Below are positions 1-26,183 of a stretch of 26,183 nt of DNA, piece after piece. Origin of the DNA: a virus. Positions within the stretch are counted from its first letter, which is position 1, and every line of letters begins with the position of its first letter. The stretch is from positions 1-26,183 of IMG/VR virus record IMGVR_UViG_3300037042_002212, one strand, 5' to 3'. The notes under the pieces are model-generated. The model was not told the origin of the DNA. It worked only from the letters and a program-made list of their open reading frames with translations, and did no database searches. The position numbers were made by a program, and so were the translations under genes.

Positions 1-1214
1 TTACTTACTAGTCCAACTGATCCAGTTCCTGTCGTGGCTGATAATAATGGGCACTGCATTGTAACGGTTCTTCCTATCCTTGCTAACTTGCAGGTTTTTG
101 ATCCAGTTGATCCTGGTGTTCCAGTACCATTAAATGTAAAATTAGTTGAGTGATCTAGCTCCTTATAATAATTCAGAGCAGTCTGCCCAGCAGCATCATC
201 ACATAGTATCCCGGTCGTAGTTTTGATTTGACCCACGACATCCAAAGCCACGGTGGGTGCCGCGATGCCGATGCCGACGTTTCCGTTGGCCAATATGGTC
301 ATTCGCTCCAATGGACTTACCGAGCCATCTGCACATGTTCTAAATTTTAATACACCAGGCATTGATGTAGCACTAACCGTACCTGCACCAACAACAGAAT
401 CTATTCTGGCACCTTGCTGAAATGCAGATACCCCGTCACTTCCTCTAAAATAGATGTAACCCAAAGCCTCTCCGGCAGTAACTGCGGTATGCGTCCCTAC
501 CGTAGACCCTTTACTTCTATTAAAATCAAATACAGTAGCTTCACCAGCCGTTGCAGACCACGTTGTTAATGAAAGTCCACTATTTGTGGCTGAAGCATCA
601 ATAGACAAACCCTGACCGAGCCTAATCGACGACGCCGACGTGGATGCGCCTACCTTAAGCGTTCCAGTAAACGACTTATTCCCAGCAAAAGTCTGAGCCA
701 CAGTATCAACAAGCCCGGCTGTTGCTGCGCCTGCGCTGGGGATATATGTGGCTACCGAGATCGGGTTAATCATGTTCGCCGCGATGGTATATGCGGTTGG
801 CTCGGCGTTGAGTTCTACATCACCCGATATGGCCACGTTCGCGGTTGATGTGGACGATTTACCGTATATGTAAATATCATCCGAGTTGTCATTACAGAAT
901 GCCGTTGATCCAAAATCATTGTTGTTAAAATGAGAGCATACCGCCTGTGATGCCCCTGCAACAAAGAGTACATCTGGAAGGGTGATCTGGATCGTAGCAT
1001 CGAACGGAGAAACTGTGGTATATGAGCCTCGTATATTGAATTTTAATCGCCATACCCCTGCACTATCTGAATAGAAAATACCATGCGCCCTTGTGGTAGC
1101 CCAACCAGCCTGAGCCGATGTCACAGTTAAATCAACTTGCTTCGTCTGTTTAACTAAATTCTGCACCGCTATAATATTATTTCCGCTTGGTGATCCCAAA
1201 AATCCGCTCGACAT
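1..1214 (-). CDS. Tail fiber / receptor-binding protein, 3' end off-window
   Basis: The frame is open from an ATG at 1214 to the window edge, about 404 codons with no stop, so the C-terminus is missing. The minus-strand leader has a G-rich ribosome binding site (GGGGG) four bases before the ATG. The N-terminal ~170 residues (starting MSSGFLGSPSGNN) differ from the neighbouring fiber. From about residue 183 (LKVGAST) onward it is clearly homologous to the 734-residue fiber upstream, including FDFNRSK, YFRGSDGVSAFQ, the motif NVGIGIAAPTVALDVVG and DDAAGQTALNYY. The last visible part (ARIGRTVTMQC) matches the fiber C-terminal domain (TRVGRVVTLTT). The NVGIG...LDV motif is widespread in phage tail fibers. 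Seen: homology to the neighbour and the motif. Inferred: a distal fiber or second receptor-binding protein. Whether a chaperone domain follows cannot be seen. Confidence 0.75.
   Translation of the reverse strand, partial: MSSGFLGSPSGNNIIAVQNLVKQTKQVDLTVTSAQAGWATTRAHGIFYSDSAGVWRLKFNIRGSYTTVSPFDATIQITLPDVLFVAGASQAVCSHFNNNDFGSTAFCNDNSDDIYIYGKSSTSTANVAISGDVELNAEPTAYTIAANMINPISVATYIPSAGAATAGLVDTVAQTFAGNKSFTGTLKVGASTSASSIRLGQGLSIDASATNSGLSLTTWSATAGEATVFDFNRSKGSTVGTHTAVTAGEALGYIYFRGSDGVSAFQQGARIDSVVGAGTVSATSMPGVLKFRTCADGSVSPLERMTILANGNVGIGIAAPTVALDVVGQIKTTTGILCDDAAGQTALNYYKELDHSTNFTFNGTGTPGSTGSKTCKLARIGRTVTMQCPLLSATTGTGSVGLVS
164..282. repeat. Tail-fiber cassette repeat, copy A
   Basis: This stretch matches 1644-1762 at a constant offset of 1480 bases with only a handful of substitutions, several of them synonymous. 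It encodes the segment NVGIGIAAPTVALDVVG to TALNYY. Nucleotide identity this high between paralogous genes points to recent duplication or gene conversion. Confidence 0.85.
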
Positions 1215-1227
1215 ATTACCCCCAATT

Positions 1228-1239
1228 CGCCAATTGGCG
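1228..1239. repeat. 12-bp perfect palindrome in the gap between the fiber genes
   Basis: The sequence CGCCAATTGGCG is a perfect 12-base palindrome inside the 67-base gap between the two fiber genes, flanked by AATT on both sides. It could be a protein-binding or methylation site, or chance. No T-tract follows it, so it is not called a terminator. Confidence 0.35.
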
Positions 1240-1281
1240 CGTTAATTTGTGTTCGTTTCAAATTTCATTTATTTACCTATT

Positions 1282-3486
1282 CTATACGTTCCAAGATGCA
1301 CATATAGTATGTATTCCAGTACTTGCCGAATTAGGCCATGCCGTCCCTGCGGGCGTAAAATAGATACGCATAACACCAACAGTAGAGATTGCCAACGTCC
1401 CAACCGTCGAAACATTATTCGATACAACCTCGATAGGTATACGTGTGCCCGCGCTAGGATATGCCCACGATTCTAGAGCGACAGACGAATCTACATAAGC
1501 GACAGACCCAGAAGATGTGCCATTAAATATGGACGTTGTGGTCAGGGTAACAACCCTTCCTACCCTAGTTATTTTTCCAGCAAAAGCACTGGTGGGGGTA
1601 GAGAAACTCCATACTGCATTAAGCAGTCTAGCATCATCCTCCCTATAATAATTCAGCGCAGTCTGCCCAGCAGCATCATCACATAGTATCCCGGTCGTAG
1701 TTTTGATTTGACCCACAACATCCAAAGCTACGGTTGGTGCCGCAATGCCGATGCCAACTTTGCCGTTATTTAAGATTGTGACCAAATTGGAATTTTCAGT
1801 ATTATTATCAATATTTATCGCCGTAGAACCAGAACTTATACTCATGTAACCAGCTGCTGCTGCTGTACGTATTCGTCCCCCGGTACCCGCACCGCCAAAG
1901 GTATTAACTGTTCCATCATTTACAAAATTTCCCGTAGCATGCATCGCACCCACAACATCCAAAGCTACGGTGGGTGCCGCGATGCCGATGCCCACGTTGC
2001 CATTAGCTAGTATACACATGCGTTCAGTGGGACTTACTGATCCGTCTGCCGACGTATTAAAGACCATCTTAGCTGGCATGGATGTAGCACTAGGAGTTCC
2101 GGTATCAACACTTGCACCAATATATGCTGCATTCTGAAATGCGGATACCCCATCGCTTCCCCTGAAAGAAATAAAACCAAGTTTATCCCCCGTAACAACA
2201 GCAGCATGCGTCCCAATTGTCGCACTCTTACTCCTATTAAAATCCACTAGTGGGCAATGTCCGGCAGTAGTTGACCATACATTAAGAGCATCACCGCCAT
2301 AGTTTGCAGACACATCGGTAGAAATAGATTGACCAAGCCTACTAGACGTCGCCGACGTTGATGCACCTACCTTAAGCGTTCCAGTAACCGCCAAATTTCC
2401 AGCAAAAGTCCCAGACACAAATGTCGCTTGATCCTGCACTCTCCAAGTTGAGTTTGTAGCATCCCAAGTCAGAATCGCCCATCCGTTCACTGGTAGCAGA
2501 GTTACATCAGTGTAAGCAACACCGCCATAAGTGATTGTCTCAGTTCCAGCATATCCTTGGATAACAAGCCGTTTTGTCGTTGTATCGTTTCCGAATGTTT
2601 TGAAGCCTATTGTTGCCGTTGAAGATGCTGTCAATGTCGATGACTGTGGAAGCCTGCAATAGCCGTTGTACGTGGCTAAATTGTACTGATACAGGTTGCC
2701 GCCAAGAGTCGCGAAAGGTGTGCCTGTTGCAACGCCGCCATCTTCCGCAGCAGCAGCAGCATGATAGACGACAGCAAGTCCGCCTCCAATTGTTTTGAAG
2801 GAAGACCCATCATCAACCACAAGAGATGCTTTGTCTGTGTCATATGCAACGGTAGCAACCTTGCGAGTGAGTCCAGAGAGTGTGGCAGTTGATGCCTTTG
2901 GTACGGTTACTCTTGATGTATTTGATGCCGTTGATCCTTCATAATCCTTGTTGGTCAATTGTTGGACCGTGGATTTTGTGGCGATTGTTACTGGTTTAAA
3001 TTTACTAGAAGTTGAATCGAAGACGAGAGCCTGCTCGTTGATGGCTGGTGTTGATAAATCAACGTCAGTAAGTTCTGATGACGTACCAGCAAAGTAACCT
3101 TGAACAATGATCGCCGCAATGTCTTGTTGCGATCCGGTGTTGTTTGTGATTGTTACTTTTGTCGTAGTAAAACCGCCTGTAGCAGCTACCACAAAGTCAT
3201 CAAGATCAGGTGTCCCGCCCTTAACGATCCTGGTCAATTCGCCAGTTCCCTCGTTGTAGGTGTGAAGAAGGATCTTCAATTCCGCGAAAGCGCATTTGAA
3301 GTTATGCTCCAAAACAACAGAATCAGCAGTATTCAAGTTCGGAGCTAAATAAAACCTGGATGTCAAAAAGTCTGACACCCTCGAATATATCGCCTTAATA
3401 TACGTTTCAAGAGTAGAACCGCCTTCATAACCCAGATCTGGGTGAATGAGTTGCGCCCTGCCTAATGTTGATGTTGTATTAGCCAT
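1282..3486 (-). CDS. Tail fiber protein with repeated VGIG modules
   Basis: 734 residues. The ATG at 3486 has GGGAG seven bases upstream and lies three bases after the previous stop. The N-terminal ~360 residues are Thr/Ser/Ala-rich, as in beta-structured fiber shafts, with an Ala-rich patch (YHAAAAAEDGG). From about residue 370 the protein matches the partial fiber downstream. The module [NK]VGIGIAAPTVALDVVG occurs twice (about residues 490-513 and 575-614), while the neighbour shows one copy in the visible part. The C-terminal ~100 residues (from GKITRVGRVVTLTT) look like a small beta domain that could contact the receptor. The NVGIG...LDV motif is common in tail fibers and in the stalk just before intramolecular chaperone domains, but no S74-type chaperone follows here. 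Inferred role: host recognition at the tail tip. Tail spike remains possible. Confidence 0.8.
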   Translation of the reverse strand: MANTTSTLGRAQLIHPDLGYEGGSTLETYIKAIYSRVSDFLTSRFYLAPNLNTADSVVLEHNFKCAFAELKILLHTYNEGTGELTRIVKGGTPDLDDFVVAATGGFTTTKVTITNNTGSQQDIAAIIVQGYFAGTSSELTDVDLSTPAINEQALVFDSTSSKFKPVTIATKSTVQQLTNKDYEGSTASNTSRVTVPKASTATLSGLTRKVATVAYDTDKASLVVDDGSSFKTIGGGLAVVYHAAAAAEDGGVATGTPFATLGGNLYQYNLATYNGYCRLPQSSTLTASSTATIGFKTFGNDTTTKRLVIQGYAGTETITYGGVAYTDVTLLPVNGWAILTWDATNSTWRVQDQATFVSGTFAGNLAVTGTLKVGASTSATSSRLGQSISTDVSANYGGDALNVWSTTAGHCPLVDFNRSKSATIGTHAAVVTGDKLGFISFRGSDGVSAFQNAAYIGASVDTGTPSATSMPAKMVFNTSADGSVSPTERMCILANGNVGIGIAAPTVALDVVGAMHATGNFVNDGTVNTFGGAGTGGRIRTAAAAGYMSISSGSTAINIDNNTENSNLVTILNNGKVGIGIAAPTVALDVVGQIKTTTGILCDDAAGQTALNYYREDDARLLNAVWSFSTPTSAFAGKITRVGRVVTLTTTSIFNGTSSGSVAYVDSSVALESWAYPSAGTRIPIEVVSNNVSTVGTLAISTVGVMRIYFTPAGTAWPNSASTGIHTICASWNV
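1644..1762. repeat. Tail-fiber cassette repeat, copy B
   Basis: Near-identical partner of 164-282 (offset 1480), within the complete fiber gene. Confidence 0.85.
1948..2018. repeat. Tail-fiber cassette repeat, shorter copy C
   Basis: Third copy of the DNA encoding NVGIGIAAPTVALDVVG, near-identical to the matching parts of copies A and B. It lies about 235 bases upstream (in coding sense) of copy B in the same gene, so this fiber carries an internal module duplication. Confidence 0.75.
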
Positions 3487-6472: not shown

Positions 6473-6692
6473 TTTTTTCTTCCATAAGCAAATCGAATAC
6501 TTCTTTAGGCACTCCAAAAAATGAACCGCTACTCATCTTGATGACGTAATCCCCATTTCTCATATACTGAATTCCTATAGGAGATCTTACTACATAGTTT
6601 GTACAAAATTTAGCAAGACCTGGAACAAGACGATGAAGCTGAAACTTGTTGGCTTCAATAGAAACATTATTTTTTGTAACAAAAGTAGACAT
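6459..6692 (-). CDS. Small unrecognised protein between tip-repeat protein and hub
   Basis: 77 residues; family not recognised. Its ATG shares one base with the previous stop (TAATG at 6692), indicating translational coupling. Its 3' end carries the ribosome binding site of the hub gene. The visible content is basic and mildly hydrophobic (LVPGLAKFCTNYVVRSPIG) with an acidic tail (LLMEEKNGDI). Conserved tight packing between two tail genes supports it being real. A small tail assembly or tip connector is possible, but nothing in the sequence proves it. Confidence 0.6.
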   Translation of the reverse strand: MSTFVTKNNVSIEANKFQLHRLVPGLAKFCTNYVVRSPIGIQYMRNGDYVIKMSSGSFFGVPKEVFDLLMEEKNGDI

Positions 6693-8614
6693 TACAAACT
6701 TTCGTCATAGTCCAGAGTTAATGAAACATAATGTTCTTCATCGGTTATTGCAGTATGGCTCTCAGAGGGAAGAACAGAGAGTTTAGAAAACACAGCAAGA
6801 GAACTTGGGTTCGTTGGCCTTGGTATAACAAGCGCCTTAAGATCTGTTTTATTTGTAATAAAATAGTCTCTTAGCATTTTATAGTTACCGCCATTATATT
6901 TTATCATTGAAAATGATAATGATAAGTTCTTCCTTATAGCTCTATCGTTAGATACAGGAGAGAACCCCTCTGTTTCAATCGTGTCCTTGAAATGCTTGAA
7001 CCCAAAAGTCACAGGGTTATCAAAGCATTCGGCCAAAGAAACAATTTTGGACGAACCTATAACAACAACACCCATATAAAGAGCATACGGATTCCCATAA
7101 TCAAGAACAAATATTCTCCAATACCTATATGGATTGCTTGGCACGTCAGGGCTTATCCAATAGGTGTTCTCCAATTCAACCGTAGGTCTAATGGTTATGT
7201 CTGCGGCACCGTTAGGATTCGTTGTATACCCATAGATTTCAACCACAGCGCCCTTTGTGAAGTTGTGGTTAAGAATTGCGATGGTATCAACATAGGTGTT
7301 TGGCTTTCCAGTATCGCACCAAATTGAAAATCCCCTAACTCCCTGGGCTGTCTTTGTAATCTGCTCCAATATATCGGTGTTCAAGTTGTTTGGATCATAG
7401 TCACCTTCGGCTATCCCGTCAGGAACATCATTCGTCCAAGTCTCTCCATTTTGCGCTGGAACGCCTCTACTTGCGAAATCAGTCAATATCCTCAATTGAG
7501 TTGTGTTATACAAAACTTTATTTACTTGGGTTTTGTGACTAACTTCTCCAATTTTTAATACTTGAACGCCAAGATAATTTTGAACATATATTATTTTTTC
7601 AACCTGATTAAAATTCAATGCATAAACATTAATCTTCATTTCTATTTGAATTGGTAAATAAATATCATCTGTAGAAGACATTATGTGAAGATTTATTTGT
7701 GACCCAATTTTATTGTCATGATAAATCTTACTATCTATTTGAACGCCATTAATATTTATGTAATCAATTCTCTTTTCAACTTGGCTTCCAACTTGAAGGT
7801 CTGTGTATTTCTTAAGATCTATTTGAGTAGATACTTCATTTACATTGTGAGTTCTCAGTTCAACCTGTGTGCTTATTGGATATTCAAAGTTTATCTTTTT
7901 ATCTATCTGTGCCGAAATATCCAGTCTCTCTTTAACTCCAAGATCTATCTGAGTTCCCATTGGAGTTGTGAAACATTCAGCAAGATACTTATCAGTCAAA
8001 TACGGAACCATTAAATATTTTGGACAAGGAATATGAAGAAGACCACCTTTTACAACCTCAACACCGAATGGGACAGATAGGTCTTCAATTAATTTTTCGA
8101 TCTGAGTTGAAATTGGATTTGAATATATATTTTTTAATTCAATTTGCATGTTAATAGATAATGAATCTTGTATTTCAAGATCTACTTGAGTGCTTAAATT
8201 ATAAATCTTATCTTCAATGAATCTTTCTATTTGAGATGAAACTACATTATATCCAGTAGCTATTTTATCTATTTGAGTGCTTAAAACATTTTCATCTAAT
8301 ATTGATAATTCAGACTGAACTCCATTTGGTAATTCATAATTTATTTCCAACTCTACTTGAACGCCATTATCTTGTTCATAATCAAGTATGGACTTTAATA
8401 TCTGCGTACCAAGATCTAACTCTAGGTTTATTTTCGATTCAACCTGAACAGACACCGAATTAGAATCTTGTATTTCCAAATCAATCTGTGACCCAAGATC
8501 AAAAATATGGGCTTCTATCTTCTTATCTATCTGCGCGCCCAAGTAATTCTGAACATGACCAGAAAGATACCCATCGGTTAAATATAATGATTCAAGATAT
8601 CCTTGCATTGCCAT
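6692..8614 (-). CDS. Tail-tip protein with 14-residue tandem repeats (distal-tail-like)
   Basis: 640 residues; starts in TAATG overlap with the tape measure stop. Residues ~25-375 consist of about 23 copies of a unit with the pattern [LIV]-[SG]-[TS]-Q-[IV]-[DE]-x-[KE]-[IL], repeating every 14 (sometimes 15) residues. The Gln of each unit falls at 28, 43, 57, 71, 86, 100, 114, 128, 143, 157, 171, then 222, 236, 250, 264, 278, 292, 306, 323, 337, 351. A YLTDxYL motif starts exactly 17 residues before the first Gln of each block (11 and 205). Residues ~380-540 (FSIWCDTGKPNTYVDTIAILNHNFTKGAVVEIYGYT...YWRIFVLDY) look like a galactose-binding/discoidin-like beta sandwich. The C-terminal ~100 residues look like a further beta domain. 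Position directly after the tape measure is that of a distal tail protein. Role inferred; the repeat is not one I recognise. Confidence 0.65.
   Translation of the reverse strand: MAMQGYLESLYLTDGYLSGHVQNYLGAQIDKKIEAHIFDLGSQIDLEIQDSNSVSVQVESKINLELDLGTQILKSILDYEQDNGVQVELEINYELPNGVQSELSILDENVLSTQIDKIATGYNVVSSQIERFIEDKIYNLSTQVDLEIQDSLSINMQIELKNIYSNPISTQIEKLIEDLSVPFGVEVVKGGLLHIPCPKYLMVPYLTDKYLAECFTTPMGTQIDLGVKERLDISAQIDKKINFEYPISTQVELRTHNVNEVSTQIDLKKYTDLQVGSQVEKRIDYININGVQIDSKIYHDNKIGSQINLHIMSSTDDIYLPIQIEMKINVYALNFNQVEKIIYVQNYLGVQVLKIGEVSHKTQVNKVLYNTTQLRILTDFASRGVPAQNGETWTNDVPDGIAEGDYDPNNLNTDILEQITKTAQGVRGFSIWCDTGKPNTYVDTIAILNHNFTKGAVVEIYGYTTNPNGAADITIRPTVELENTYWISPDVPSNPYRYWRIFVLDYGNPYALYMGVVVIGSSKIVSLAECFDNPVTFGFKHFKDTIETEGFSPVSNDRAIRKNLSLSFSMIKYNGGNYKMLRDYFITNKTDLKALVIPRPTNPSSLAVFSKLSVLPSESHTAITDEEHYVSLTLDYDESL
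7520..8551 (-). repeat. Protein-level tandem repeat array, 14-residue (about 42-base) period
   Basis: About 23 diverged units of the STQIDxKI type in two blocks separated by a 36-residue spacer holding a second YLTDxYL cap. DNA of different units has drifted, so the array is maintained by protein selection rather than recent copying. Confidence 0.8.
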
Positions 8615-11600
8615 TATCTAACTCCTGCGGAAGACAGAATATATCTACCCATTTGAGATTTTTTCTTCAGTTCTTTTTCTATCTCTGGAACTACTTCTCT
8701 TCGTATCTGATCTGCATCAAGTAATGTCCTTGAATTTATTGTCACATTAATAACTGTCCCACCAGATGACTGAAGAGGAGATCCGCCATTATTGATTGAT
8801 TGAAGAAGGCCCAAGTTATTCTTGGTAGAGTTGCGGTTTACTACAAACTCTCCAGGAGTAAGCATAGAAGGAACAGAATCGGTGCCTTGTGCAAAATTAG
8901 CAACTCGATTTGAATTTATATATCCACCGTCAGCAAAAGCAGGAACCATTCCACCACGACTAAACGCATTACCCCTGAACATGTCCATAATCCAAGATGT
9001 TGCCTTTGTTTTTACAGTATCCCACATTACCCTTTTAAGTTCTTCGGCGGCTGCGGCAGCGGCAGCAGCTATTTGAGCGGCAAGAACTTCGGCTGCTATT
9101 CTTGCGTCTTCAATGGCTCTAGCGGTAGCAGCAGCTATGTTAGCAGCAATTACTTTAGAATCCTCTACAGCCTGTGCAGCGGCAGCGGCGGCATCTTCCA
9201 ATGCTTGTGAAGCGGCTGCTGCTGCGGCGGCTGCGGCAGATGCGGCGGCGGCGGCGGCGGAATCAGCAAGATCCTTCCCAGAATCTATAACATCTCCTAA
9301 AGTTCCACCGACTTTTACTTTTGGAAATCCCATAGCAAATTTAGGTAACTGCATATTTCCGCTAAGTATGGAATTTATAATCCCAGCAATTCTTGGATCT
9401 TGCATTTTTGATCTTGGTATGATCGCTTCACCAGGAGAAAGAAGGGCTAGTATTCTGTCATTTCTTTCTGAATCTCCACTTACCAATGCATTTCCAGGAA
9501 CTTTACCACCTTCTGCAAAACTTACATAAGGTATGTCAATTCCAAGAGCGCCTTCAACAGTACCTTTACCATAGGCACTATCTGGAATTTTGAATATTTT
9601 GCCTAAAAGACTTGCTGGGTTTAAATCATCTAATATTTTCTTGAAACCAGTAGAAACATTATTAAATGCATCTTTCATTCCATCCCAAATACTAGATCCT
9701 ATTCCTTTGAAAAAATCCCTCGCTCCATCTAACCCATCCTTCAATCCATTAAATATTTTTGTTCCTATTCCAGATACAATATCAGATCCAGAAGACAACG
9801 CTGTAGTGAATGAATTCCAAATATCAGAACCAACATCTGCAAAAGCTTTTCCTATATCTTCTAAACCTTTAGTAAATGCGTTAGCTATATCACTTACGGC
9901 CTTAGAAAAGGCGTTAATTGTGTCTTCTATTCCTTTAGTAAATGCGGCAACTATATCACCAGCAGCCTTTAATAATGCTGTGGATATATCTTCTAATGCT
10001 TTATAAAATGCATCAAATACATTTCTCCATATAGTTTCTATTTGCGACCAAAGTATAGTTAATGCATCACAAATATTTCTCCATATAGTTTCTATTTGCG
10101 ACCATAATATTGTAAGTGTGTCACAAATATTTCTCCATATAATTTCTATTTCACCCCATAAAGATTGCAATGTATCGCAAAACATTCTCCATATATATTC
10201 TATTAAACTCCACAATCTCGTTAATTCAGCGCAAATATCTCTCCATGCTTTTTCTGCTGTATCCCATATATTTTGAAGAACGTCTACGAATGGTTTTAAA
10301 AAGTGATTCCATACATACAACCAAATATCTTTTAAATATTGAAGAGCCTTATTCCATATCATTTTAAGATAATTAGCCCCGCCCACTAGAGACTGATCAA
10401 TTGCTTTTTTAATTCTGTTAGCCAGATCACTTCCCTTGGCTTTCTGGGCGCTTTCCATAACAGAGAACAATTGTGAACTAGACTTACTTACAGCCTCACC
10501 TAGCTCCTCAACTTTCTTTGTAACATCAGGAATGTTGAATATCGGTTTCATTTTAAATAATGCAGCTACTTCATTAATAAATTTTTTAAATTCTAATATA
10601 AACCCATCTACAAAAGCCTTTACCATTGTTTTAATTATTGGCCCTATATTCTTAACAAGAAGAATAACTCCCTTAATTATTGATAATACTATTTTTGGAA
10701 TAAATAAAAGCAAAGATGCCATCATTTTACCAATGCTGGCCCAAAACTTCTCGGACGAAAATGTTTTTACAAAGCTATCCATTACTTTATCAATAACATT
10801 AGGAAACATATCAAGCCAACTTTGAAACATTCTCGTAGTATCAACACTTCCCTTTGATACAAGATCTCCGAATGTTTTTGCGGCGCTATTGAATGTGTTT
10901 GCTACTTTTCCTGGAAAACTGGATACAGCATCTAGAAGGTCAAGGAATTTCTGAGGAAGTTCTGCTATGGCATTGATCATAGACTTTATAGCATCCATGA
11001 TCATTCCGGCGGCTGACACCATTCCCATAGGCCCGCCCATGAAGCTAGTGAAGGAAGCCATCCCATTGGCAAGAGGAGCGCCAAAATTAGCTCCTGCTTG
11101 TTCGATCTGAGCAGAGTTAAATACAGCGCCACCTTTTTCTACTGCTGGCGCTATCTTTGTTTTCCTTGTTGTAGCAGCCTCTTTCTTTTTGAGATCGTCC
11201 AACATATCAAGTCGATCTTTTATAAGATCATTCTGGTACTTTTCTAATTTAATTAATGCTTCTTTTCCAAGTTCCATTGTTTCAGTAGTATTATAACCTC
11301 TCTCATTCATCATTCTTTGGGCTTCAATGGCTCTTTGTATGCTAGATATTTCATCATCGTAAGCCTTTGTTTTTTCATTTCTTTCTCTATTAAAAGCTTT
11401 AATATAATTTCCTTGCGCCTCTGCTCTTGCTTCATCTATTTTTGCCTGTTTAGTTTCATAACTTAAAAGTTCAGTTCCAATTAAATTATAAGTTTCAGCA
11501 ACAGCTTCATGATATTTCTTTGCTGCCGCGTCTGCTTCCTTAAAAGAACTTGTAATCTTTCCAGAATCATCTCCATATGTTGCTGCATATGCTGTGGCAA

Positions 11601-13731
11601 GAGCCTTTTTATAATCCTGAGATTCCGATAAAATTTTAAAGTATGCCGCATCTAATTTAGTTAACGCGTTTGTCCCTTTGTATATAGAATTTATATCTTT
11701 TTCAGTCATGCCTATATACGGAACCTTCTTTGCAACAGCAGTTTTAGATTCTCCAGGAACAGCATTAGTATCAGGCTGTCCTTGAAGCTTCTTGAAAAAT
11801 GCATCCAAAGCCGTTCCATTTTTTATTACATCATCATTAAACCCCTTCATTGCTGAAGTTAAGTTATCAGACATAGTAAAAACAAAAGGTGTCTGCACTG
11901 TTTTTCTAAGTTCATTTAATCTTGTGTTTAGCTTTGCATATTCATCATTAAGAGTTTGAACCTTATCTTTATGGCCCAATAAATCTGGCCCTGAGTTTTT
12001 AAGTTTTACTATTACTTCATCAGACCATTTTCTTATAGCATCTTGCGAAAATCCAAATAGCCCAACGAATCCTGCCATGAAGTCAGTAACGCCAGAAAGA
12101 AATGAAGCAAACGCATCTACCAACAAAGTTGAAAAACCATTTTTAATAGATTCAACCCAATACTCGAAAGCATTTCTAGCCATGTCGGCTTTAACTTTCA
12201 TTATTTCAAATGCATCTCCAAGATTATTTCTATTTCGATATATATATTCAATGGCAGTTCCAAATGCCATTACAGTCATTGTTAATAGAGTAAATTTAGC
12301 CATAACAACTAATGCGCCGCTCATGGCAAATGTTAAAAATATAATTGCTAATCCAAACTCTTTTGCGCCCTTTGTAGCCGCGCTCCAATTAATCCTTTGC
12401 AAAGCTTGAGCGAACGCGACAACAACAGGATAAACAGCGTCAATGACTTCTCTCATTCCTGTTATTACTCTTGCGGTAACATCTAAGAGTTTGTATCCAA
12501 AGTCCTGTATTAATGCAGTAAATGTTCCTTTTAGAATCATCAACTTTCTATCAACGGTTTTCATCTGTATGTCAACAGCCTGACCAACAACAGTTCCAGG
12601 TATTCCTTCGGTAGCCTTTATCTGGGCCATTGTTTTCTCATAAACGCCAAGAATAGCTGGGTTCATGATCATAGTGATCAATCCCTGGATGCCTTCTTGT
12701 CGTCCTATCAAGTTACCTACGGCTTCGGCCTGTCCACCTACTGCTTCAATCAACGCCTTCATTGTCTTAAGAAGACCAACAGACTTGAGCATCTCCTGAA
12801 TGCCAGAAAACTGCTTGCCGTCTATTTTTAATGTCGGAAGGATTGTCCCAAGTAATTCGGACTGTTTCATAAATGACACTAGGATTGATCTAAGGTATGT
12901 CATTGCCTGTCCAGTGTCTTGCTGTGCCGTTGTCATTGCTGACAGTGCAGAGGCTGTCTCTCCAAGAGATACACCCATATTATAAGCAAGAGGGGCAACA
13001 TCCCCGATGGTAAGAGCCAAGTCAGTCATCGTTGCCTGACCGTTTCTTTCAGCCAATGTCAAAATGTCGGATATTCTCGCTGCATCAGAAGCCTTCATGT
13101 TGTATGCAGCTATGACAGATGTTAATGCCCTGACAGAAACGGACAATTCCGTAGACCCACCAATTGCCAATCTCTGAGCGTCATATAGGAACTTTGTGGC
13201 ATCATTGGCCGAGACAATTCCGCTACTTAAAGTCTTATAATAAGCTTCGATAATGTCTTGCTGCGATGTCCCAAATAATCTTTGAAAGTTTATAATATCG
13301 CTGCTGAATGTCTTCTGAGCATCTTTGACATCAGGAACAATAGCATTAATTGTTGCTGCGCCTTTTTCCAGTGCTATGGCCGGACCCATTACAGCCGTAC
13401 CGAGTGTAGCAAATGTTCTAAATGTCCTGGTAACAAGCTCAAGGGCCTGGTTTACCATGAATATCTTAGAGGGAAGAGATCCTATGTTTTTGCCAAAAAG
13501 GGTAAACATGCCACCGCTAGAACCAGCGCCATCTCCTGCACCCTTTAAGGCAGATCTCATTTTGCCAGCAGATTCTTGAACTTTGCCTGACGCTCCAGTT
13601 AAATCATTGGCCATCTTGGTGAATGCTTTGGCCATTGAATCGGCTACGCCCTGGATCATCTTAAGCTTGGCTGTGGCTTCGTCCTTGACACTAATTGGAA
13701 TGACAAATTCGTCGCCAGTTGTTACAGCCAT
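8614..13731 (-). CDS. Tail tape measure protein
   Basis: 1705 residues from the ATG at 13731, which has GGGGGAA upstream; a TTG at 13746 would place that site inside the gene and is not used. Residues ~100-350 form a TP901-type phage tail tape measure core (MGPAIALEKGAATINAIVPD, TLAERNGQATMTDLA, LGETASALSAMTTAQQDTGQ). Hydrophobic segments lie near 457-495 and 1000-1038, as usual for proteins that may enter the host membrane. A charged coiled region lies near 720-830, 18-residue Trp repeats at ~1147-1237, 11-residue repeats at ~1240-1330, and an Ala-rich stretch at ~1485-1563. Two SPGE/TPGE motifs (LLSPGEAIIPRS, MLTPGEFVVNRNS) mark the C-terminus typical of the family. At the generally cited ~0.15 nm per residue the tail would be roughly 250 nm. 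It ends in TAATG overlap with the tip gene. Confidence 0.95.
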   Translation of the reverse strand: MAVTTGDEFVIPISVKDEATAKLKMIQGVADSMAKAFTKMANDLTGASGKVQESAGKMRSALKGAGDGAGSSGGMFTLFGKNIGSLPSKIFMVNQALELVTRTFRTFATLGTAVMGPAIALEKGAATINAIVPDVKDAQKTFSSDIINFQRLFGTSQQDIIEAYYKTLSSGIVSANDATKFLYDAQRLAIGGSTELSVSVRALTSVIAAYNMKASDAARISDILTLAERNGQATMTDLALTIGDVAPLAYNMGVSLGETASALSAMTTAQQDTGQAMTYLRSILVSFMKQSELLGTILPTLKIDGKQFSGIQEMLKSVGLLKTMKALIEAVGGQAEAVGNLIGRQEGIQGLITMIMNPAILGVYEKTMAQIKATEGIPGTVVGQAVDIQMKTVDRKLMILKGTFTALIQDFGYKLLDVTARVITGMREVIDAVYPVVVAFAQALQRINWSAATKGAKEFGLAIIFLTFAMSGALVVMAKFTLLTMTVMAFGTAIEYIYRNRNNLGDAFEIMKVKADMARNAFEYWVESIKNGFSTLLVDAFASFLSGVTDFMAGFVGLFGFSQDAIRKWSDEVIVKLKNSGPDLLGHKDKVQTLNDEYAKLNTRLNELRKTVQTPFVFTMSDNLTSAMKGFNDDVIKNGTALDAFFKKLQGQPDTNAVPGESKTAVAKKVPYIGMTEKDINSIYKGTNALTKLDAAYFKILSESQDYKKALATAYAATYGDDSGKITSSFKEADAAAKKYHEAVAETYNLIGTELLSYETKQAKIDEARAEAQGNYIKAFNRERNEKTKAYDDEISSIQRAIEAQRMMNERGYNTTETMELGKEALIKLEKYQNDLIKDRLDMLDDLKKKEAATTRKTKIAPAVEKGGAVFNSAQIEQAGANFGAPLANGMASFTSFMGGPMGMVSAAGMIMDAIKSMINAIAELPQKFLDLLDAVSSFPGKVANTFNSAAKTFGDLVSKGSVDTTRMFQSWLDMFPNVIDKVMDSFVKTFSSEKFWASIGKMMASLLLFIPKIVLSIIKGVILLVKNIGPIIKTMVKAFVDGFILEFKKFINEVAALFKMKPIFNIPDVTKKVEELGEAVSKSSSQLFSVMESAQKAKGSDLANRIKKAIDQSLVGGANYLKMIWNKALQYLKDIWLYVWNHFLKPFVDVLQNIWDTAEKAWRDICAELTRLWSLIEYIWRMFCDTLQSLWGEIEIIWRNICDTLTILWSQIETIWRNICDALTILWSQIETIWRNVFDAFYKALEDISTALLKAAGDIVAAFTKGIEDTINAFSKAVSDIANAFTKGLEDIGKAFADVGSDIWNSFTTALSSGSDIVSGIGTKIFNGLKDGLDGARDFFKGIGSSIWDGMKDAFNNVSTGFKKILDDLNPASLLGKIFKIPDSAYGKGTVEGALGIDIPYVSFAEGGKVPGNALVSGDSERNDRILALLSPGEAIIPRSKMQDPRIAGIINSILSGNMQLPKFAMGFPKVKVGGTLGDVIDSGKDLADSAAAAAASAAAAAAAAASQALEDAAAAAAQAVEDSKVIAANIAAATARAIEDARIAAEVLAAQIAAAAAAAAEELKRVMWDTVKTKATSWIMDMFRGNAFSRGGMVPAFADGGYINSNRVANFAQGTDSVPSMLTPGEFVVNRNSTKNNLGLLQSINNGGSPLQSSGGTVINVTINSRTLLDADQIRREVVPEIEKELKKKSQMGRYILSSAGVR
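9043..9275 (-). repeat. Ala-rich low-complexity stretch in the tape measure
   Basis: GCN-rich DNA encoding runs of up to nine alanines broken by short charged groups such as QALEDA, QAVEDSK and RAIEDAR. The spacing of these groups suggests a degenerate helical repeat. GC content here is clearly above the flanking sequence. Confidence 0.85.
10021..10290 (-). repeat. Five tandem 54-bp repeats in the tape measure
   Basis: Units begin at 10021, 10075, 10129, 10183 and 10237. The first two share a 30-base identical start; the last two are more diverged. Each encodes an 18-residue unit of the form LWSQIETIWRNICDALTI, with Trp at two fixed positions. Confidence 0.85.
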
Positions 13732-13732
13732 C

Positions 13733-14161
13733 TTATTTTCCCCCAAACATTTTGCTAATCATTTTCCCTAAAGATTCTAAAACATTTCCAGCTAGTTCGT
13801 ATGAACTTCTCCACATTGTAGAATTTTCTTTAAGCCTAAAATAATTAACAAACCAAGAAAAGTTTTCAGCGAACATTTCGTCCTGATCTTCTAATGACCC
13901 AGGTTTTGGCATAATCCCTGTTTCAAGTGCCATTAGACAGTCAGAGAACAATTCGGCTATCTCATTGTACCATGTTGCTTTTCCATGGCAAAACGTCAGT
14001 TTGAGACTTGATGGATCTATTTGCCTTCCTCTTGGAATGTTATTAAACCCATCTTCTTTACATTTTCGTTGCCTTTTGACTACTTCGGGACATTTCTGGC
14101 AGTCTACCGTCTTCAAAACATCATGTGGTGAAAACCTTAGATCTACCAATGCCCCTAAGAG
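13733..14161 (-). CDS. Tail assembly chaperone extension (gpT-like), reached by -1 frameshift
   Basis: This frame lacks a good start of its own: the only candidate near its beginning is a TTG at 14149 without a well-spaced ribosome binding site. It is exactly the -1 frame of the upstream gene at a slippery A_AAA_AAC, so a shifting ribosome reads ...SKN-LLGALVDLRFSPHDVLK... and makes a fusion of about 300 residues (158 + 142). The extension has a Cys cluster (VDCQKCPEVVKRQRKC) and ends in a basic helix (KMISKMFGGK), one base before the tape measure ATG. In lambda and many siphoviruses gpG and the frameshifted gpGT sit between tube and tape measure genes and load tube subunits onto the tape measure. 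Sequence similarity to named gpT proteins is not evident; the call rests on position, frame and slippery site. Confidence 0.75.
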   Translation of the reverse strand, partial: LLGALVDLRFSPHDVLKTVDCQKCPEVVKRQRKCKEDGFNNIPRGRQIDPSSLKLTFCHGKATWYNEIAELFSDCLMALETGIMPKPGSLEDQDEMFAENFSWFVNYFRLKENSTMWRSSYELAGNVLESLGKMISKMFGGK

Positions 14162-14634
14162 TTTTTTGAGTTCGACTTGACCTCACTTTGCGTCAGTGTG
14201 AAGTAATGATTGAATATTTCGTTAACAATACCATATCTCTGAAGTTCGGTCATCGTATCTTCACTTACATAACCTTTTGAATCTCTTGAAAGTTTAATTA
14301 CATCGGATTCGCCGATTGGATTTTGGATGTCCTTCAAGCAACGCTTTGTAATTTCATAGGCCCATTTACCCATGGTCATCTTTGGGTTCTTGTCGTCATC
14401 AACGCCACCAATCATTGAATCCTGGATTGATGCGCCATCTTTTCCAGATACTTCAAAATTGCATAGAAAAATGGTTGGCGTTTTACCTTCCAACAATTTT
14501 ATGGATGTTTCATTTACAATTGGATCTTTGTCATAAAGCGCAAAGTCTGAAAGTTCTAGATCAACTGCGCCATCATTTCTAGAAATCAACTTTACAGAAT
14601 TAAGACTTCTAACGCCTGATTTTTTGAAAGCCAT
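14155..14634 (-). CDS. Tail assembly chaperone (gpG-like)
   Basis: 159 residues with a strong AAGGAG ribosome binding site six bases before the ATG at 14634. The protein is soluble and acidic, with no membrane segment: a beta-rich N-terminal half (VKLISRNDGAVDLELSDF, IKLLEGKTPTIFLCNFEV) and a helical C-terminal half (MGKWAYEITKRCLKD, ELQRYGIVNEIFNHYFTL). It follows the tail tube gene and precedes the tape measure gene, the standard place for the short chaperone. Its last codons contain the slippery A_AAA_AAC, and the zero-frame stop comes one codon later, as in gpG genes. Function is inferred from position and the frameshift; I do not recognise the family by sequence. Confidence 0.75.
   Translation of the reverse strand: MAFKKSGVRSLNSVKLISRNDGAVDLELSDFALYDKDPIVNETSIKLLEGKTPTIFLCNFEVSGKDGASIQDSMIGGVDDDKNPKMTMGKWAYEITKRCLKDIQNPIGESDVIKLSRDSKGYVSEDTMTELQRYGIVNEIFNHYFTLTQSEVKSNSKNS
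14161..14167 (-). promoter_or_regulatory. Programmed -1 frameshift slippery site A_AAA_AAC
   Basis: Read on the minus strand in the zero frame the codons are TCA AAA AAC TCT TAG. The heptamer A_AAA_AAC fits X_XXY_YYZ. A slip of -1 continues with CTC TTA GGG GCA TTG, open to 13733. A GAGG that could pair with 16S rRNA ends 13 bases upstream (14181-14184), and a weak stem CTTAG/CTAAG starts two bases downstream. Confidence 0.8.
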
Positions 14635-14713: not shown

Positions 14714-16327
14714 TTATACGAATTCCAACACGATTGGATCTCGTCCACCAGGAGTACTTTCGTACAGGTTACCAGTGAATGTAACAGGCGTTACACCGCT
14801 AGCAGGAAGGTCAATAGCAGGAACGCTGACAACCCACTTAGGAGCCGAAACCAGAAGCGATCTGCCAACGCCATCACCGATAAGAATCTGAGGAGTGAAC
14901 CCACCGAATTTCCTAGCCTGAACCAAGCTGCCAAGGTTTACGCCAGAAAGATCTAGTGTGCATTCAAGTGTCATGGTCATCTTGTTTGCAGGAACAAACC
15001 CTTCATTGCCCTGACTTCCAAAGCAATTGTCCCTATCGACATGGTCATTATTGCATGTCAAAGAAATGTTAGTTACGCAAACCGATGGATCTGTCGAATT
15101 GAATTTGAAAGAACCATAAAGATCCGTGTAAATATTATCTCTTGCGGTCGTACCAACTGCGCCTGGGTGCCAGAACACAAGGAAACCACCAGTTTCAGCA
15201 TCTACTGCTGCAGAAAGAACCAGAGTATCTGTTCCCTGGATTTCGGTAGTAATGAACAAAGACCCATCGAATCCAGCAGTAATCGTCCTTCCATCAGCAG
15301 CAACAACCATTACAGGTGCGCCAACCGTGAAACGCTCAACATGCTTTATCGGGGTATTTTGAAGAACTATCGTGTCAGAAGCGACAACCGCTCCATCAAT
15401 GATACCGATACCAGCAATGGCACCGTTTGCAAGACGGCCAGAGAATTTCTGTGTGCCTGGAGCATCGCCTGGAACGGTCAGGGCGTATTCTTTAACATAA
15501 CCGCCAGTGAAGTATTCGGCGAAGATGGTAGAAGCCCTAACAACGCTGAAATACACTGTGGGGATGTCCTGTTCGTAAACCATCTCAACGCCAGGAACCA
15601 ATGTCTGTTTTCCGAAAGACGACTTCAAGAGAACGGCGATTGCCGGATCAATCGAAGCGCCAGCAGAACCAGCCATGTTGATCATGGTTGTGATGTCAAA
15701 TGAACAGTTGACTTTCTTTTTGATAAACCCAGAATGGTATCGCTCTGTTCTGTGCGGGCTGGCTTCAATCGGCTGTTCAAACTTAGCGCCACCTTCTGTG
15801 TACAGAAGATAATCTTGATCTACAACGCCAACAGCTTCATCGCCACCATTTGCAAGGCCAATCTTCAAATCGTCAGCCAAGTTATTGGTAGCTCCGTCTG
15901 TAATTACTACAGAAGAACCTGTTCCAGTTGATTGAGAATAAATCTCATAATGGTCATCAACGATGTCAAAAAGTGCCCAAACTCTTGCGTCTTGTCCGTC
16001 AGCAGCCAAGGCAGTATTGATAACTGTCTCAAGGTGTGCGGCAATTGCAGCGCCAGTCGTTTTGCCAGCGTTTGTGGTAGTGCAATTTACAAGAGTGCCG
16101 CCATCGACTACTACTTTGAAATTAACACCAGGAAGTGCAGAGATATCATCAACCGCACCAATGTCACCAATCGAACTTCCCTGGGTTCCAATTCTAGGAA
16201 CAGCAAAAACTCCCCTAGATGCTTCTTCTCTAATAAAGATGGAGCTATCTACACCAAGGTTAGCACCTTCTCTATCGCTGTTAACGATACTGGCAAAATC
16301 AATCTTGCTTCTGTACTTCAAGCCCAT
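14714..16327 (-). CDS. Major tail (tube) protein
   Basis: 537 residues from the ATG at 16327, which has GAGGG five bases upstream; an ATG 12 bases earlier has its AAGG directly abutting and is less likely. The start MGLKYRSKIDFASIVNSD and the C-terminal LECTLDLSGVNLGSLVQARK / PVTFTGNLYESTPGGRDPIVLEF fit a tube-forming beta protein; position between the tail terminator and the chaperone/tape measure pair supports this. The protein is longer than typical simple tube proteins. Residues ~70-160 (KVVVDGGTLVNCTTTNAGKT, GAAIAAHLETVINTAL, IYSQSTGTGSSVVITDGA) form a compact domain resembling ones seen inserted in flagellin-hook-like and phage surface proteins. Residues ~305-400 form a second beta domain. 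These are likely outward-facing insertions. The following hairpin fits a highly expressed gene. Identity by sequence alone is moderate. Confidence 0.75.
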   Translation of the reverse strand: MGLKYRSKIDFASIVNSDREGANLGVDSSIFIREEASRGVFAVPRIGTQGSSIGDIGAVDDISALPGVNFKVVVDGGTLVNCTTTNAGKTTGAAIAAHLETVINTALAADGQDARVWALFDIVDDHYEIYSQSTGTGSSVVITDGATNNLADDLKIGLANGGDEAVGVVDQDYLLYTEGGAKFEQPIEASPHRTERYHSGFIKKKVNCSFDITTMINMAGSAGASIDPAIAVLLKSSFGKQTLVPGVEMVYEQDIPTVYFSVVRASTIFAEYFTGGYVKEYALTVPGDAPGTQKFSGRLANGAIAGIGIIDGAVVASDTIVLQNTPIKHVERFTVGAPVMVVAADGRTITAGFDGSLFITTEIQGTDTLVLSAAVDAETGGFLVFWHPGAVGTTARDNIYTDLYGSFKFNSTDPSVCVTNISLTCNNDHVDRDNCFGSQGNEGFVPANKMTMTLECTLDLSGVNLGSLVQARKFGGFTPQILIGDGVGRSLLVSAPKWVVSVPAIDLPASGVTPVTFTGNLYESTPGGRDPIVLEFV

Positions 16328-16341
16328 GATAACCCTCATCC

Positions 16342-21410: not shown

Positions 21411-23939
21411 TCATGAATTGACGATTAAATCAGACTTGGATCTAGCATCTTGTGGAATTACAGAAACCCATGAACAACGGCAGTTACAAATATCAGCAGG
21501 GCCAGAACTAGGATCTCTTGGATATTTCATTTTCCCGCCAGTTGTTGGATTAGTCCAAACATAATCATATGCCACAATTCCATCGCCTTCAAATGCGGCG
21601 TGTTCTTTCCTGGCTTCAGGGTTAATGCCAACATCACCTGTGTGGAACCATTGCTTGCCAACTTCGTCAAATACTTCTCGAAGAACCTTGTGGTTCCATT
21701 CCTGACCTTCAGATATGGCGCACAATGTCTCTGTCCTTACGATTGTGTCAACTCGGTATCCGAACTTGACCTCATAATTGGCCCTTAAGCTACTTGCGAT
21801 AATAGAATCTGTCTTGCCAGCCTTTTGGCCGTCTTCTATCACTTGCATGATCTCTTCTGATCTAACCTTGTCGATTCCATTCTCAGCGTCTACAAACCCA
21901 TCCAAAAGCCGCCTAGCGAGGGTTCTCCTCTGATCATCTCTTGTTCTTTCCCTGATTATATCAATGGCAACCAAGTCACTATCCTCAAATGTCGTGCCTG
22001 CTTCTGCCCTGACCATAACCTTAGAAAGCGTCTTTGCATTTGAAGTTGCAATAGAAAATGACTTTTCCATTATTTCGTTGGCAACAGGAAGAACATCCTC
22101 TATGTATTTTTTCTTCCTGGTTTCATGCTGAGACATCAAGAATGACCCAACATCTCTGCCGGAAGATAGAGCATATCTAGCGTTTGCCAGTATGTTTTCT
22201 AGGTACTTATCAATGGCTTTAGAATACTTTTTGGATTCTACTTCTTCCAAATTTGCCTGATCATCAACTGCCTTTTTCTTAGCCAAACTCTTCGCGCCAA
22301 AGTAAGTTTCTTTGTCGATAATGTCTGGATGGGTATGAGAATCATCGCCACCAGATAATACTCTCCAACCTTTGATTGCATGATTGTGCTGAGTGCCATC
22401 TCCCTGGACGTTTCCTAGAGTTGTGCCATCTCCGTTTTCATCCCATTGGCAATAATGAACGTGTCTGTACTGACCGTTGCCATCATCAGTATTTCCCTTT
22501 TTGAACTTCTTCTCTTCCAAGACATCGGGAGGAGGTGGCGGCTCGTCGCTTCTTTGATCTTTAGGATTTCCAATAGTAGACAAAGGATTGCTTTTAACTA
22601 TTTCAGAAACAAATTTGTCTCCTCTTATGTCGCCTTCTTCCATCGGAGGAATCTTCAAGATCTCTTTTCTAATTTCATTTATTGTCATGAACTTAGCTGC
22701 TTTTTCTCCCAATTCGCATTTGCTATAGAAAGATCCTTCTACAGCGTCAAGACCCTCTAAATCTGCCTTAACGTATATCTTCCCTTTGTACTTTGTTTTT
22801 ATTAGATAAGATTCATTCCAACCGCTTTCAATAAAAAGCGTTAGAGGAACAATAGTGTTATCCCAAAGAGCAGCTTTCTGATCTTCAGAAGTTGACCTGT
22901 TTACGTCCTGGACAATACCAACCTGAGAAGGAGGTATCCCAAGGTTTGCTAGAAGTGTCGATCTGTTTTCTTTCAATCCTTCGAGATGTTGCATCTCTGT
23001 CATCGAAAGAGTTGAGTTCTTCCACCTAGCGCCCTTTGGCAGAAACAGTTGTCTCCACCAGTTTCTCTTTCCAGTGAAGGCTTGCTCAAACGTCCGCATC
23101 AGACGTTCCATCCTGGTTTTGCTTATCTCCTGGTCTGTCTCGATAACACCAGAATGCATCCCACCACGAAGATAGAAAGCCATCTCATATTCATTTTTAT
23201 ATCTGTCTAATAGAATTGGCCTAGATGCGCTTATTATTAATGGAAGTCCATAGAACGGATTAAATGGGTTAGGTAGTTTTACATGAACGCATCTTTCAAA
23301 GGGAATATTACCATCTGTAAACTTCAGGGCCGAAAGATCGCTTATTTGAATGGATTCAATTGGCCCAAGTTCTACGATCTTTTTCCTGTCTATGTCAGAC
23401 CTTATCTCGCGCATAACGGGCGTGACAGTAGCGAGAGGAATCCACATGCACGTTGTATACTTTTCATCAAAGATAAGGAAATAGTTACCGCCAAGAACGG
23501 CATCAATATAAGAGCAAGAATCCCTGAAGGCTTTGCTTGTAATGAAGTTGCCAGTGTCTATCAGTTTTTGAATTGGATGTTTTGGGATCTCTTTGTGCGT
23601 AGCTGAATCATAAACTTTGAAAGGAACTTGCATCAAACTTCTAGCGATTAAGTTGGCGCAAGTATTGACCCAGGGTTCTTTAGCGTAAAGACCAACCAGG
23701 CGCCCAACAGTTGCCTGGATGTTGAATTCTGAACCAAAATAGTTTCCGTTTTGTTGCGAATCGTCATTCTGAAACTTGTCATATCCAAACTCTGCTTTGA
23801 TATGAGCATCAATTCCAAAACGATCATTCATATCTACTTTAACAAAACGTGCATCGTTTAACTCGGATATGTCGGTTAAATCTTCCTTCAAAGTAACAGG
23901 TTCGGGACTTTTATCCCGAAAAAAGTCTTTCAAATTCAC
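21411..23939 (-). CDS. Fused portal and MuF-like head protein
   Basis: 842 residues beginning at a GTG (23939) with AAGGA nine bases upstream; no in-frame ATG is closer. Residues 1-460 are an HK97-type portal (family stretch LLANLGIPPSQVGIVQDVNR at ~329-348; YGLPLIISASRPILLDRYKN). A Pro run (DEPPPPPD, ~466-472) leads to a His-rich domain at ~491-540 with HVH, HNH and HTH pairs. Residues ~560-842 are MuF-like: a coiled middle, RTETLCAISEGQEWN, and a terminal GPADICNCRCSWV, the Cys-rich segment typical of MuF proteins. The portal ring is the DNA entry point; MuF proteins are minor head proteins needed for morphogenesis. Having both in one chain is seen in some phages. Confidence 0.85.
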   Translation of the reverse strand: MNLKDFFRDKSPEPVTLKEDLTDISELNDARFVKVDMNDRFGIDAHIKAEFGYDKFQNDDSQQNGNYFGSEFNIQATVGRLVGLYAKEPWVNTCANLIARSLMQVPFKVYDSATHKEIPKHPIQKLIDTGNFITSKAFRDSCSYIDAVLGGNYFLIFDEKYTTCMWIPLATVTPVMREIRSDIDRKKIVELGPIESIQISDLSALKFTDGNIPFERCVHVKLPNPFNPFYGLPLIISASRPILLDRYKNEYEMAFYLRGGMHSGVIETDQEISKTRMERLMRTFEQAFTGKRNWWRQLFLPKGARWKNSTLSMTEMQHLEGLKENRSTLLANLGIPPSQVGIVQDVNRSTSEDQKAALWDNTIVPLTLFIESGWNESYLIKTKYKGKIYVKADLEGLDAVEGSFYSKCELGEKAAKFMTINEIRKEILKIPPMEEGDIRGDKFVSEIVKSNPLSTIGNPKDQRSDEPPPPPDVLEEKKFKKGNTDDGNGQYRHVHYCQWDENGDGTTLGNVQGDGTQHNHAIKGWRVLSGGDDSHTHPDIIDKETYFGAKSLAKKKAVDDQANLEEVESKKYSKAIDKYLENILANARYALSSGRDVGSFLMSQHETRKKKYIEDVLPVANEIMEKSFSIATSNAKTLSKVMVRAEAGTTFEDSDLVAIDIIRERTRDDQRRTLARRLLDGFVDAENGIDKVRSEEIMQVIEDGQKAGKTDSIIASSLRANYEVKFGYRVDTIVRTETLCAISEGQEWNHKVLREVFDEVGKQWFHTGDVGINPEARKEHAAFEGDGIVAYDYVWTNPTTGGKMKYPRDPSSGPADICNCRCSWVSVIPQDARSKSDLIVNS

Positions 23940-23956: not shown

Positions 23957-26183
23957 TTATGCATCTTCATAATCGAAAACAAACTCATGGTCTTCTTTAT
24001 CTTCATCGTCAACGTCGAATGGGTCGGGGCCATCCATGGCCAAATCGGCATAAGCGCCAATCACATCATCCAGATTCTCACCATTCAAGGCTGCTATAAG
24101 ATACTCTTCCGCAGAAGACGAACAGCTATTTGAATATGCTCCACTTATCGCAAGTATCGCTGCCGATACAACGTCATCATGTTCGCCTTCTGGAGCGCCA
24201 TACTTGTGCAGTCCAGAAGCCGTGACAGATAGCTCATAAATACCAAACTCATGGGCAATGCGCCTGATTTTTGGTGTTTTGTGCCAACCTGATTGAACAC
24301 TTAGAACGGCTTTCGTTATCATCTCAGATTTAGACTTCGAGGTAAAGCAGATTGGCTGAACATCGGCCTCTAACTGAGCTTCATTGAGCATATCCTCGAA
24401 AGCTACACCAACACCTGTTGCGTCAAACCTAACCGTATTATCACAATCAGTAAAATAATTAGTTAGATATGTCTTAAGCCTTATCACTTGTTGAGGATAT
24501 GGAATCAATTGGAATCTGCAATATCCAACCAGTTTTCCGATAGAATTGACAGTATAAAATACTGTGTAGTCCTGTTTTTTTGCAACGTCCACTCCATGGT
24601 ACATTTCGCCAGTTCTATAAGATGAATCATGAATCCAAAATCTCTCCATTGATGGCTTGTAAATAACCGAATCGTCCCACATGGTACTTAGATCGCCAAA
24701 CGTAGTCGAATGACTGATAAATTCTGCCAAATAATATTGAGAAAAAAGATGCGGAGGAAGAAGTTTCTTCGCCCTGGCAATCGCTTCTTTTGAAACAAAT
24801 GGGCTGTCTTCTGTCTTCAAATTAACATATACGAAAAAAGGATCGTCACCCATCTTGGCCTGTCTGGCTATCTCATAATACCATGTAAGACCTCTTGGCG
24901 TACCAGTGACAATCCCTTTGCCCCTGGTTTGAGTGATGGTTGTTAGAAGAGAGATCCAAACTTGCTTTCCAATTTTTCCGGCTTCATCAACGCAAAATCT
25001 GTCTACGGCTTCACCTTCTATGGTTGTCTCTGCATCTTTACCATGAAGGAATTTTACGAATGACCCATTTCCCAATCGGATCTCCAAAAGCCCATCCATC
25101 ATATCTATAGAAGAATCTGACGGCATAAACGATTTGAAGTACCTGTAAGCGATCTTACATTTTAGATATGTAGGAGCGATCCAAACACAATAGAGCCTTG
25201 GATAGGTCATCGCTTCAGTAACCATCCATAGGGCAGACCCATAGGTATTGTGTGTTGGGATGCATCCTTCTCCACATAGGAAAAGATGGGTAGGACTATC
25301 TACCTTAATACATTTGACTGGTACTGAAGGAACAGGATTGACTGCGACAATAGTGCGGTGTTTTGCTTTAAGGGCCACAGGACGTATTCTGTCGAGTTTG
25401 CGCTTTAGACGAAAGACAGGGACATCGGTTGTAAAAAGAACTCGATAGCAAAGCTTTTTTTGTACGCCATATAATTTCCCATATCTCTCTTGTCTTGAAA
25501 CTCTTATCCCAAGAGAAACGGCCAATTTCTCAACACCGTCCGCAATGTTTTTGTTTGTATTATCGAAGCAACATTTTCCAGTTTTACCAACAGTCCCATC
25601 TGTATCCATTAATCCCTGGAGAAGAGCTAATCTTTGCGCTGAAGATCCAATAAGATATTGATCGGGAATCCTTTTCTCTTTTGGCCTTCCTATCTTTTTT
25701 AAATCTGTTATCAATCCCAAAACACCATGTTGTTTTCCATCTGGATAATCAGTAACTACATATCCAGCTTTCTCTATTTCCTCGACAATCTGCCTATCTG
25801 GCTTACAGTATGATCCGTGGCCAGTACTACCATCTCCCAACCAAATACCAAGAACATATGGATCTACTTCAAGCTTTTGTTCTTTAAATTGTATTGGGCC
25901 AGAAACCAATTTAACAGAATGATTGGGTCTTTCTACTCCTCCTATTGTAATAGTAAGAGTATCCAATATTTGTTTGGTTGTTCTCAATTGAGGAGCCGCC
26001 TCAGTTGTTTTGCAGCGATCATTTTTCGATAAAACCCTAGCTTGATTCTTTCTCTCGTAATGAGTTTCTGTTAGCCATAAATGATCCTCGTCTGCTACAA
26101 CTTTAGTCCCATCCGAAAAGACTAGTTCATAACATTTATGATCATACATCGGCTCAGAGGCCCAAATAACCTCGATTGGATGA
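23957..26183 (-). CDS. terL: Terminase large subunit interrupted by an intein, 5' end off-window
   Basis: The frame is open across the right edge. Numbering from the Met codon at 26149, residues up to 301 are intein and 302-730 are terminase. The extein resumes with TYGSALWMVTEAMTYPRLYC; Walker B is VDRFCVDEA (Asp388-Glu389) and TGTPRG follows at 415-420. The nuclease has acidic residues in YHGVDVAKKQDYT (Asp521), VRFDATGVG (Asp576) and EGEHDDVVSA (Asp658/659), the three positions of an RNase-H-like TerL nuclease. The C-terminus is strongly acidic. The Walker A motif is not in the window; the first extein residue Thr302 followed by YG suits the Thr of a GK[T/S] P-loop. The protein translocates DNA into the prohead and cuts concatemers, after removal of the intein. 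Confidence 0.9.
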   Translation of the reverse strand, partial: HPIEVIWASEPMYDHKCYELVFSDGTKVVADEDHLWLTETHYERKNQARVLSKNDRCKTTEAAPQLRTTKQILDTLTITIGGVERPNHSVKLVSGPIQFKEQKLEVDPYVLGIWLGDGSTGHGSYCKPDRQIVEEIEKAGYVVTDYPDGKQHGVLGLITDLKKIGRPKEKRIPDQYLIGSSAQRLALLQGLMDTDGTVGKTGKCCFDNTNKNIADGVEKLAVSLGIRVSRQERYGKLYGVQKKLCYRVLFTTDVPVFRLKRKLDRIRPVALKAKHRTIVAVNPVPSVPVKCIKVDSPTHLFLCGEGCIPTHNTYGSALWMVTEAMTYPRLYCVWIAPTYLKCKIAYRYFKSFMPSDSSIDMMDGLLEIRLGNGSFVKFLHGKDAETTIEGEAVDRFCVDEAGKIGKQVWISLLTTITQTRGKGIVTGTPRGLTWYYEIARQAKMGDDPFFVYVNLKTEDSPFVSKEAIARAKKLLPPHLFSQYYLAEFISHSTTFGDLSTMWDDSVIYKPSMERFWIHDSSYRTGEMYHGVDVAKKQDYTVFYTVNSIGKLVGYCRFQLIPYPQQVIRLKTYLTNYFTDCDNTVRFDATGVGVAFEDMLNEAQLEADVQPICFTSKSKSEMITKAVLSVQSGWHKTPKIRRIAHEFGIYELSVTASGLHKYGAPEGEHDDVVSAAILAISGAYSNSCSSSAEEYLIAALNGENLDDVIGAYADLAMDGPDPFDVDDEDKEDHEFVFDYEDA
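25247..26183 (-). mobile_element. Intein with LAGLIDADG homing endonuclease, N-terminal end off-window
   Basis: In frame with terminase. Visible parts, numbered from the Met codon at 26149: block B-like VVADEDHLWLT (~18-27); LAGLIDADG motif 1 YVLGIWLGDG (Asp106); motif 2 LLQGLMDTDG (Asp184); C-terminal splicing blocks VKCIKVDSPTHLF and CGEGCIPTHN, ending His300-Asn301. The next residue is Thr302, a nucleophile able to serve at +1. Both catalytic aspartates and all visible splicing residues are present, so splicing and homing could be intact. Roughly the first 35-40 residues, with the N-terminal nucleophile, are beyond the window. Confidence 0.9.

Follow-up and report, generated by a model that had tools for sequence, protein, structure and literature searches.

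Among the frameshifts described for tail assembly chaperone genes, that of phage lambda uses the slippery heptamer GGGAAAG. In that phage the tape measure protein is bound by gpG, and gpGT, made at about 1:30, brings in the tail tube protein through its T part; both proteins are gone by the time the tail is completed (PMC5009743). SPP1 and haloarchaeal tailed viruses have been described with the same arrangement and a variety of heptamers (PMC6316719, PMC5009743).

The locus considered here lies in an IMG/VR virus record of 26,183 bases (the whole stretch of DNA analysed, hereafter the window), which carries a head-and-tail gene cluster on its minus strand. An earlier note on this DNA had proposed a tail chaperone fusion of the gpG/gpGT type, a proposal that has gained support from heptamer conservation, adjacency to the tape measure gene and 3' RNA structure, and from these we infer the slippage itself. 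We regard it as very probable that the two reading frames, here called G and T, are phage tail assembly chaperones joined by programmed -1 ribosomal frameshifting. This reading is based on an in-phase heptamer, a short overlap of the frames, conservation in 72 of 72 loci, a peak of RNA folding and the gene order.

The predicted slip site and its genomic setting

The minus-strand codons closing G have been found to read GTC AAG TCG AAC TCA AAA AAC TCT TAG, in which, as noted earlier, a slippery A_AAA_AAC lies near the zero-frame stop; it is in phase, and one sense codon, TCT, separates it from TAG. Going back from the G stop, the -1 frame closes after only 25 nt, which leaves a very small interval for the shift, and the heptamer falls inside this interval. 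Read from the slip, the -1 frame begins with CTC and stays open, as had been claimed, up to the tape measure gene, a single base separating the T stop from the tape measure ATG (Table 1). The peptide crossing the shift in the predicted G-T fusion would read ...SNSKN-LLGALVDLR.

Table 1. Positions of the G/T pair, its putative recoding signals and the flanking genes in the window
Feature	Position	Strand	Remarks
541-aa ORF	14714..16339	-	directly upstream of G; major tail protein position, by position only
G-like tail assembly chaperone ORF (putative)	14155..14634	-	159 aa; ATG 14634; stop TAG 14157-14155
Slippery heptamer A_AAA_AAC	14161..14167	-	in phase, X_XXY_YYZ
T-like -1 frame	13733..14161	-	142 aa after slip; CTC at 14161; stop TAA 13735-13733
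Predicted 3' stimulatory RNA hairpin	14087..14155	-	spacer of 5 nt from heptamer
Tail tape measure protein gene	8614..13731	-	directly downstream of T; ATG at 13731

The genes have been found in the order intein-interrupted terminase large subunit, portal, prohead protease, capsid-like ORF, connector proteins, 541-aa ORF, G, T, a 1705-aa tape measure protein and later tail genes. The tape measure protein is of the TP901 type, with matches to PHROG families (to 9.9e-38), PF10145 (3.4e-21) and TIGR01760 (1.8e-18), and the 541-aa ORF has given no informative PHROG, Pfam or NCBIfam match.

Several further features of this cluster have been observed. The terminase ORF (23957-26182, minus strand) opens with an intein-like segment matching LAGLIDADG_3 and Hom_end, followed by a C-terminal intein junction (...EGCIPTHN|T) and then by the terminase domain, the N-terminal extein lying past the contig end. 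An 842-aa ORF (21411-23939, minus strand) combines a phage portal domain with a weak C-terminal Mu F-like/SPP1 gp7-like domain and is possibly a portal-head morphogenesis fusion. The first half of a 640-aa ORF (6692-8614, minus strand), for which no Pfam match has been found, repeats motifs resembling xSTQIDLxI / xVQVExxI at short intervals. Two adjacent fibre-like ORFs (3-3486, minus strand) share long near-identical stretches (SADGSVSP.ERM.ILANGNVGIGIAAPTVALDVVG), which suggests duplication of a tail fibre gene.

Conservation among relatives and competing explanations

Relatives have been sought with separate G-seeded and T-seeded searches, and matches have been obtained in IMG/VR only. After removal of most duplicates these amount to 72 distinct loci, the window included, which group into 61 clusters when T is clustered at 70% identity and in which T identity to the window falls to about 23%. 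Each of the 72 loci has a heptamer of the X_XXY_YYZ form, in phase and situated at the G stop or close to it: AAAAAAA (43), AAAAAAC (24), AAAAAAT (3), CCCAAAC (1) or AAAAAAG (1). The C_CCA_AAC of L037/L053 (one contig) alters the encoded residues and retains slipperiness. Among the relatives found with G, 18 have a gene end that can be read, and all of these carry a heptamer in phase and T in the -1 frame; the T-seeded loci likewise keep both heptamer and frame relation in every case; in most loci a large ORF lies closely 3' of T. Loss of the heptamer or of the frame relation in relatives, which the earlier note had named beforehand as an observation that would speak against it, has been looked for and found in none of the 72 loci. 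The arrangement is thus maintained despite the divergence of the proteins.

The chance level has been estimated from 457 other long-ORF ends of the same loci, in whose last 10 codons an in-phase heptamer was sought. It occurs at 5 of these ends, compared with 72 of 72 for the G/T pair, and at 1 of the 457 the -1 frame is, in addition, free of stops for 60 codons or more. The joint log10 probability of the codon choice is about -43, given local Lys/Asn codon use and with the loci treated as independent. At one long-ORF end (L054:1714) an in-phase T_TTT_TTC heptamer is accompanied by 237 open codons in the -1 frame; this may be another site of recoding, or the frames may overlap by chance.

The lack of a credible own start for the downstream frame, another point of the earlier note, has held in the window and beyond it. 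The early candidates in the window are two TTG codons, at T codons 5 and 16, neither with an SD-like sequence, and the first ATG in the T frame comes about 76 codons in. Were the heptamer incidental and T translated independently of G, through reinitiation after termination or at a weak TTG close to the G stop, such translation could draw on the first of these TTG codons (at 14149), which lies 5 nt past TAG. In 69 of the 72 loci, however, none of the possible T starts comes with an SD-like motif, many loci offer no start codon at all within the first 20 T codons, and conserved T residues (e.g., A4, in 70 of 72) start directly after the slip and hence come ahead of the TTG. As independent translation also cannot account for a heptamer retained in 72 of 72 loci, we consider it very unlikely. 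Equally unlikely is that the fusion is made by transcriptional slippage on the A run instead of ribosomal slippage, since, although runs of at least nine A are found in some relatives (e.g., L055, L066, L069), the window has just six, and neither its site nor the CCCAAAC of L053, which has no long homopolymer, is well explained in this way. The C at position 7 is kept in 24 loci, and both the 3' hairpin and the phase, conserved with respect to G, are as expected for tandem tRNA slippage.

Ribosomal frameshifting receives added support from a feature absent from the earlier account, namely RNA structure 3' of the slip site. For the 81 nt past the heptamer of the window, a folding energy of -31.4 kcal/mol has been calculated (z -4.74), a stability reached by none of 200 shuffles, and the hairpin listed in Table 1 has been obtained with the first three bases held open. 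A folding scan of all 72 loci in 70-nt segments, covering -330 to +390 relative to the slip, has shown a family-wide peak at one position only, just downstream of the slip, where the mean z is -2.2 in AAC-type loci and -1.6 in the others, compared with about -0.2 elsewhere; about one third of the loci have no downstream structure. The pairs of the hairpin are not conserved family-wide, which counts against the frameshift reading. RNAalifold has found no base pairs in common among 25 relatives and, in 8 members picked for strong folding, a base stem of 6 pairs, 2 of them with double changes, and therefore we do not claim a single conserved structure. In our reading the RNA structure is a 3' stimulator, common but absent from some loci, which is renewed instead of being kept strictly the same. 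As an upstream Shine-Dalgarno-like stimulator is present in just 17 of 72 loci, it is not claimed either.

The G and T proteins

Neither G nor T of the window has a Pfam, PHROGs or NCBIfam match, and 19 relatives have given no consistent Pfam or PHROG match, which agrees with the earlier statement that similarity to lambda is not evident in the sequence. Aligned across 19 members, the G family is conserved. For the T part, the cysteine cluster previously noticed has been found to be invariant, with Cys21, Cys24, Cys34 and Cys58 present in 72 of 72 loci; judged from this pattern, the four residues probably form a metal-binding site. Three T proteins, searched by tblastn against INPHARED (50,697 phage records), have given no match, and two T-profile scans of 84,980 prokaryote genomes have found no relative. 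Matches of G to major tail proteins of Streptococcus phages are insignificant (E 0.3-0.4), and PDB sequence profiles have given chance matches only.

AlphaFold models have been obtained with pLDDT 93 for T and 85.5 for G. Foldseek against the PDB has returned nothing significant for the T model, VIA-align has given Z of at most 2.9, and the best BFVD match (E 2.6e-3) is an unnamed protein of an uncultured Caudovirales phage, so that T, as modelled, appears to have no convincing structural relative. For the G model no significant Foldseek match has been found, and the only match reported by VIA-align is the HK97 tail assembly chaperone 2ob9.

Proposed mechanism and relation to known systems

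In the proposed mechanism, most ribosomes would terminate at TAG and yield the 159-aa G-like protein, while a minority would pause at A_AAA_AAC before the hairpin starting 5 nt downstream, where both tRNAs would slip back one base to give a G-T fusion of about 300 aa. In E. coli, which may not be the host of this phage, A_AAA_AAC is much less shift-prone than A_AAA_AAG (PMC5009743), a point that weighs against the proposal. By analogy with lambda, G would coat the tape measure protein, the T part, folded around its probable four-cysteine metal site, would recruit tail tube subunits, and both G and G-T would be expected to depart before tail maturation; the G:G-T ratio and the binding partners are presumed to follow lambda as well. 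We further suggest, tentatively and with somewhat less than even confidence, that the T domain is built on this metal site and that frameshifting is set by a hairpin within the T coding sequence, partly in the CxxC codons, in a widespread family known only from uncultivated phages.

The proposed frameshift, of the lambda gpG/gpGT type, is well supported and a known kind of event, here in a chaperone family absent from the catalogues used (Pfam, PHROGs, NCBIfam). A large uncatalogued family (61 clusters) thereby joins the frameshifted tail chaperones, one whose recoding signal is retained at 100% even though protein identity has fallen to about 23%. The loci offer a natural series of heptamers and hairpins, useful for measuring how the frameshift rate is tuned, and annotation becomes possible for otherwise unnamed G/T genes.

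The pair shares with lambda gpG/gpGT its place directly before the tape measure gene, a -1 shift late in the first ORF and a second ORF without a usable start. It differs from the lambda pair in having no Pfam/PHROGs match, in its heptamer, and in the four invariant cysteines of the T part and the predicted 3' hairpin. The gp17.5/gp17.5* pair of SPP1 and the g-t pair of HCTV are functional analogues by position, with the heptamer UUUUUUC in SPP1 and, in HCTV-2, an A_AAA_AAC identical to that of the window (PMC6316719, PMC5009743); they belong to other phages, and the likeness drawn here is one of position and of slippery heptamers. The HK97 tail assembly chaperone (2ob9) matches the G model weakly (Z 4.2 over 96 residues, rmsd 6.7, 5% identity), a match that is weak by itself and yet points to the expected protein.
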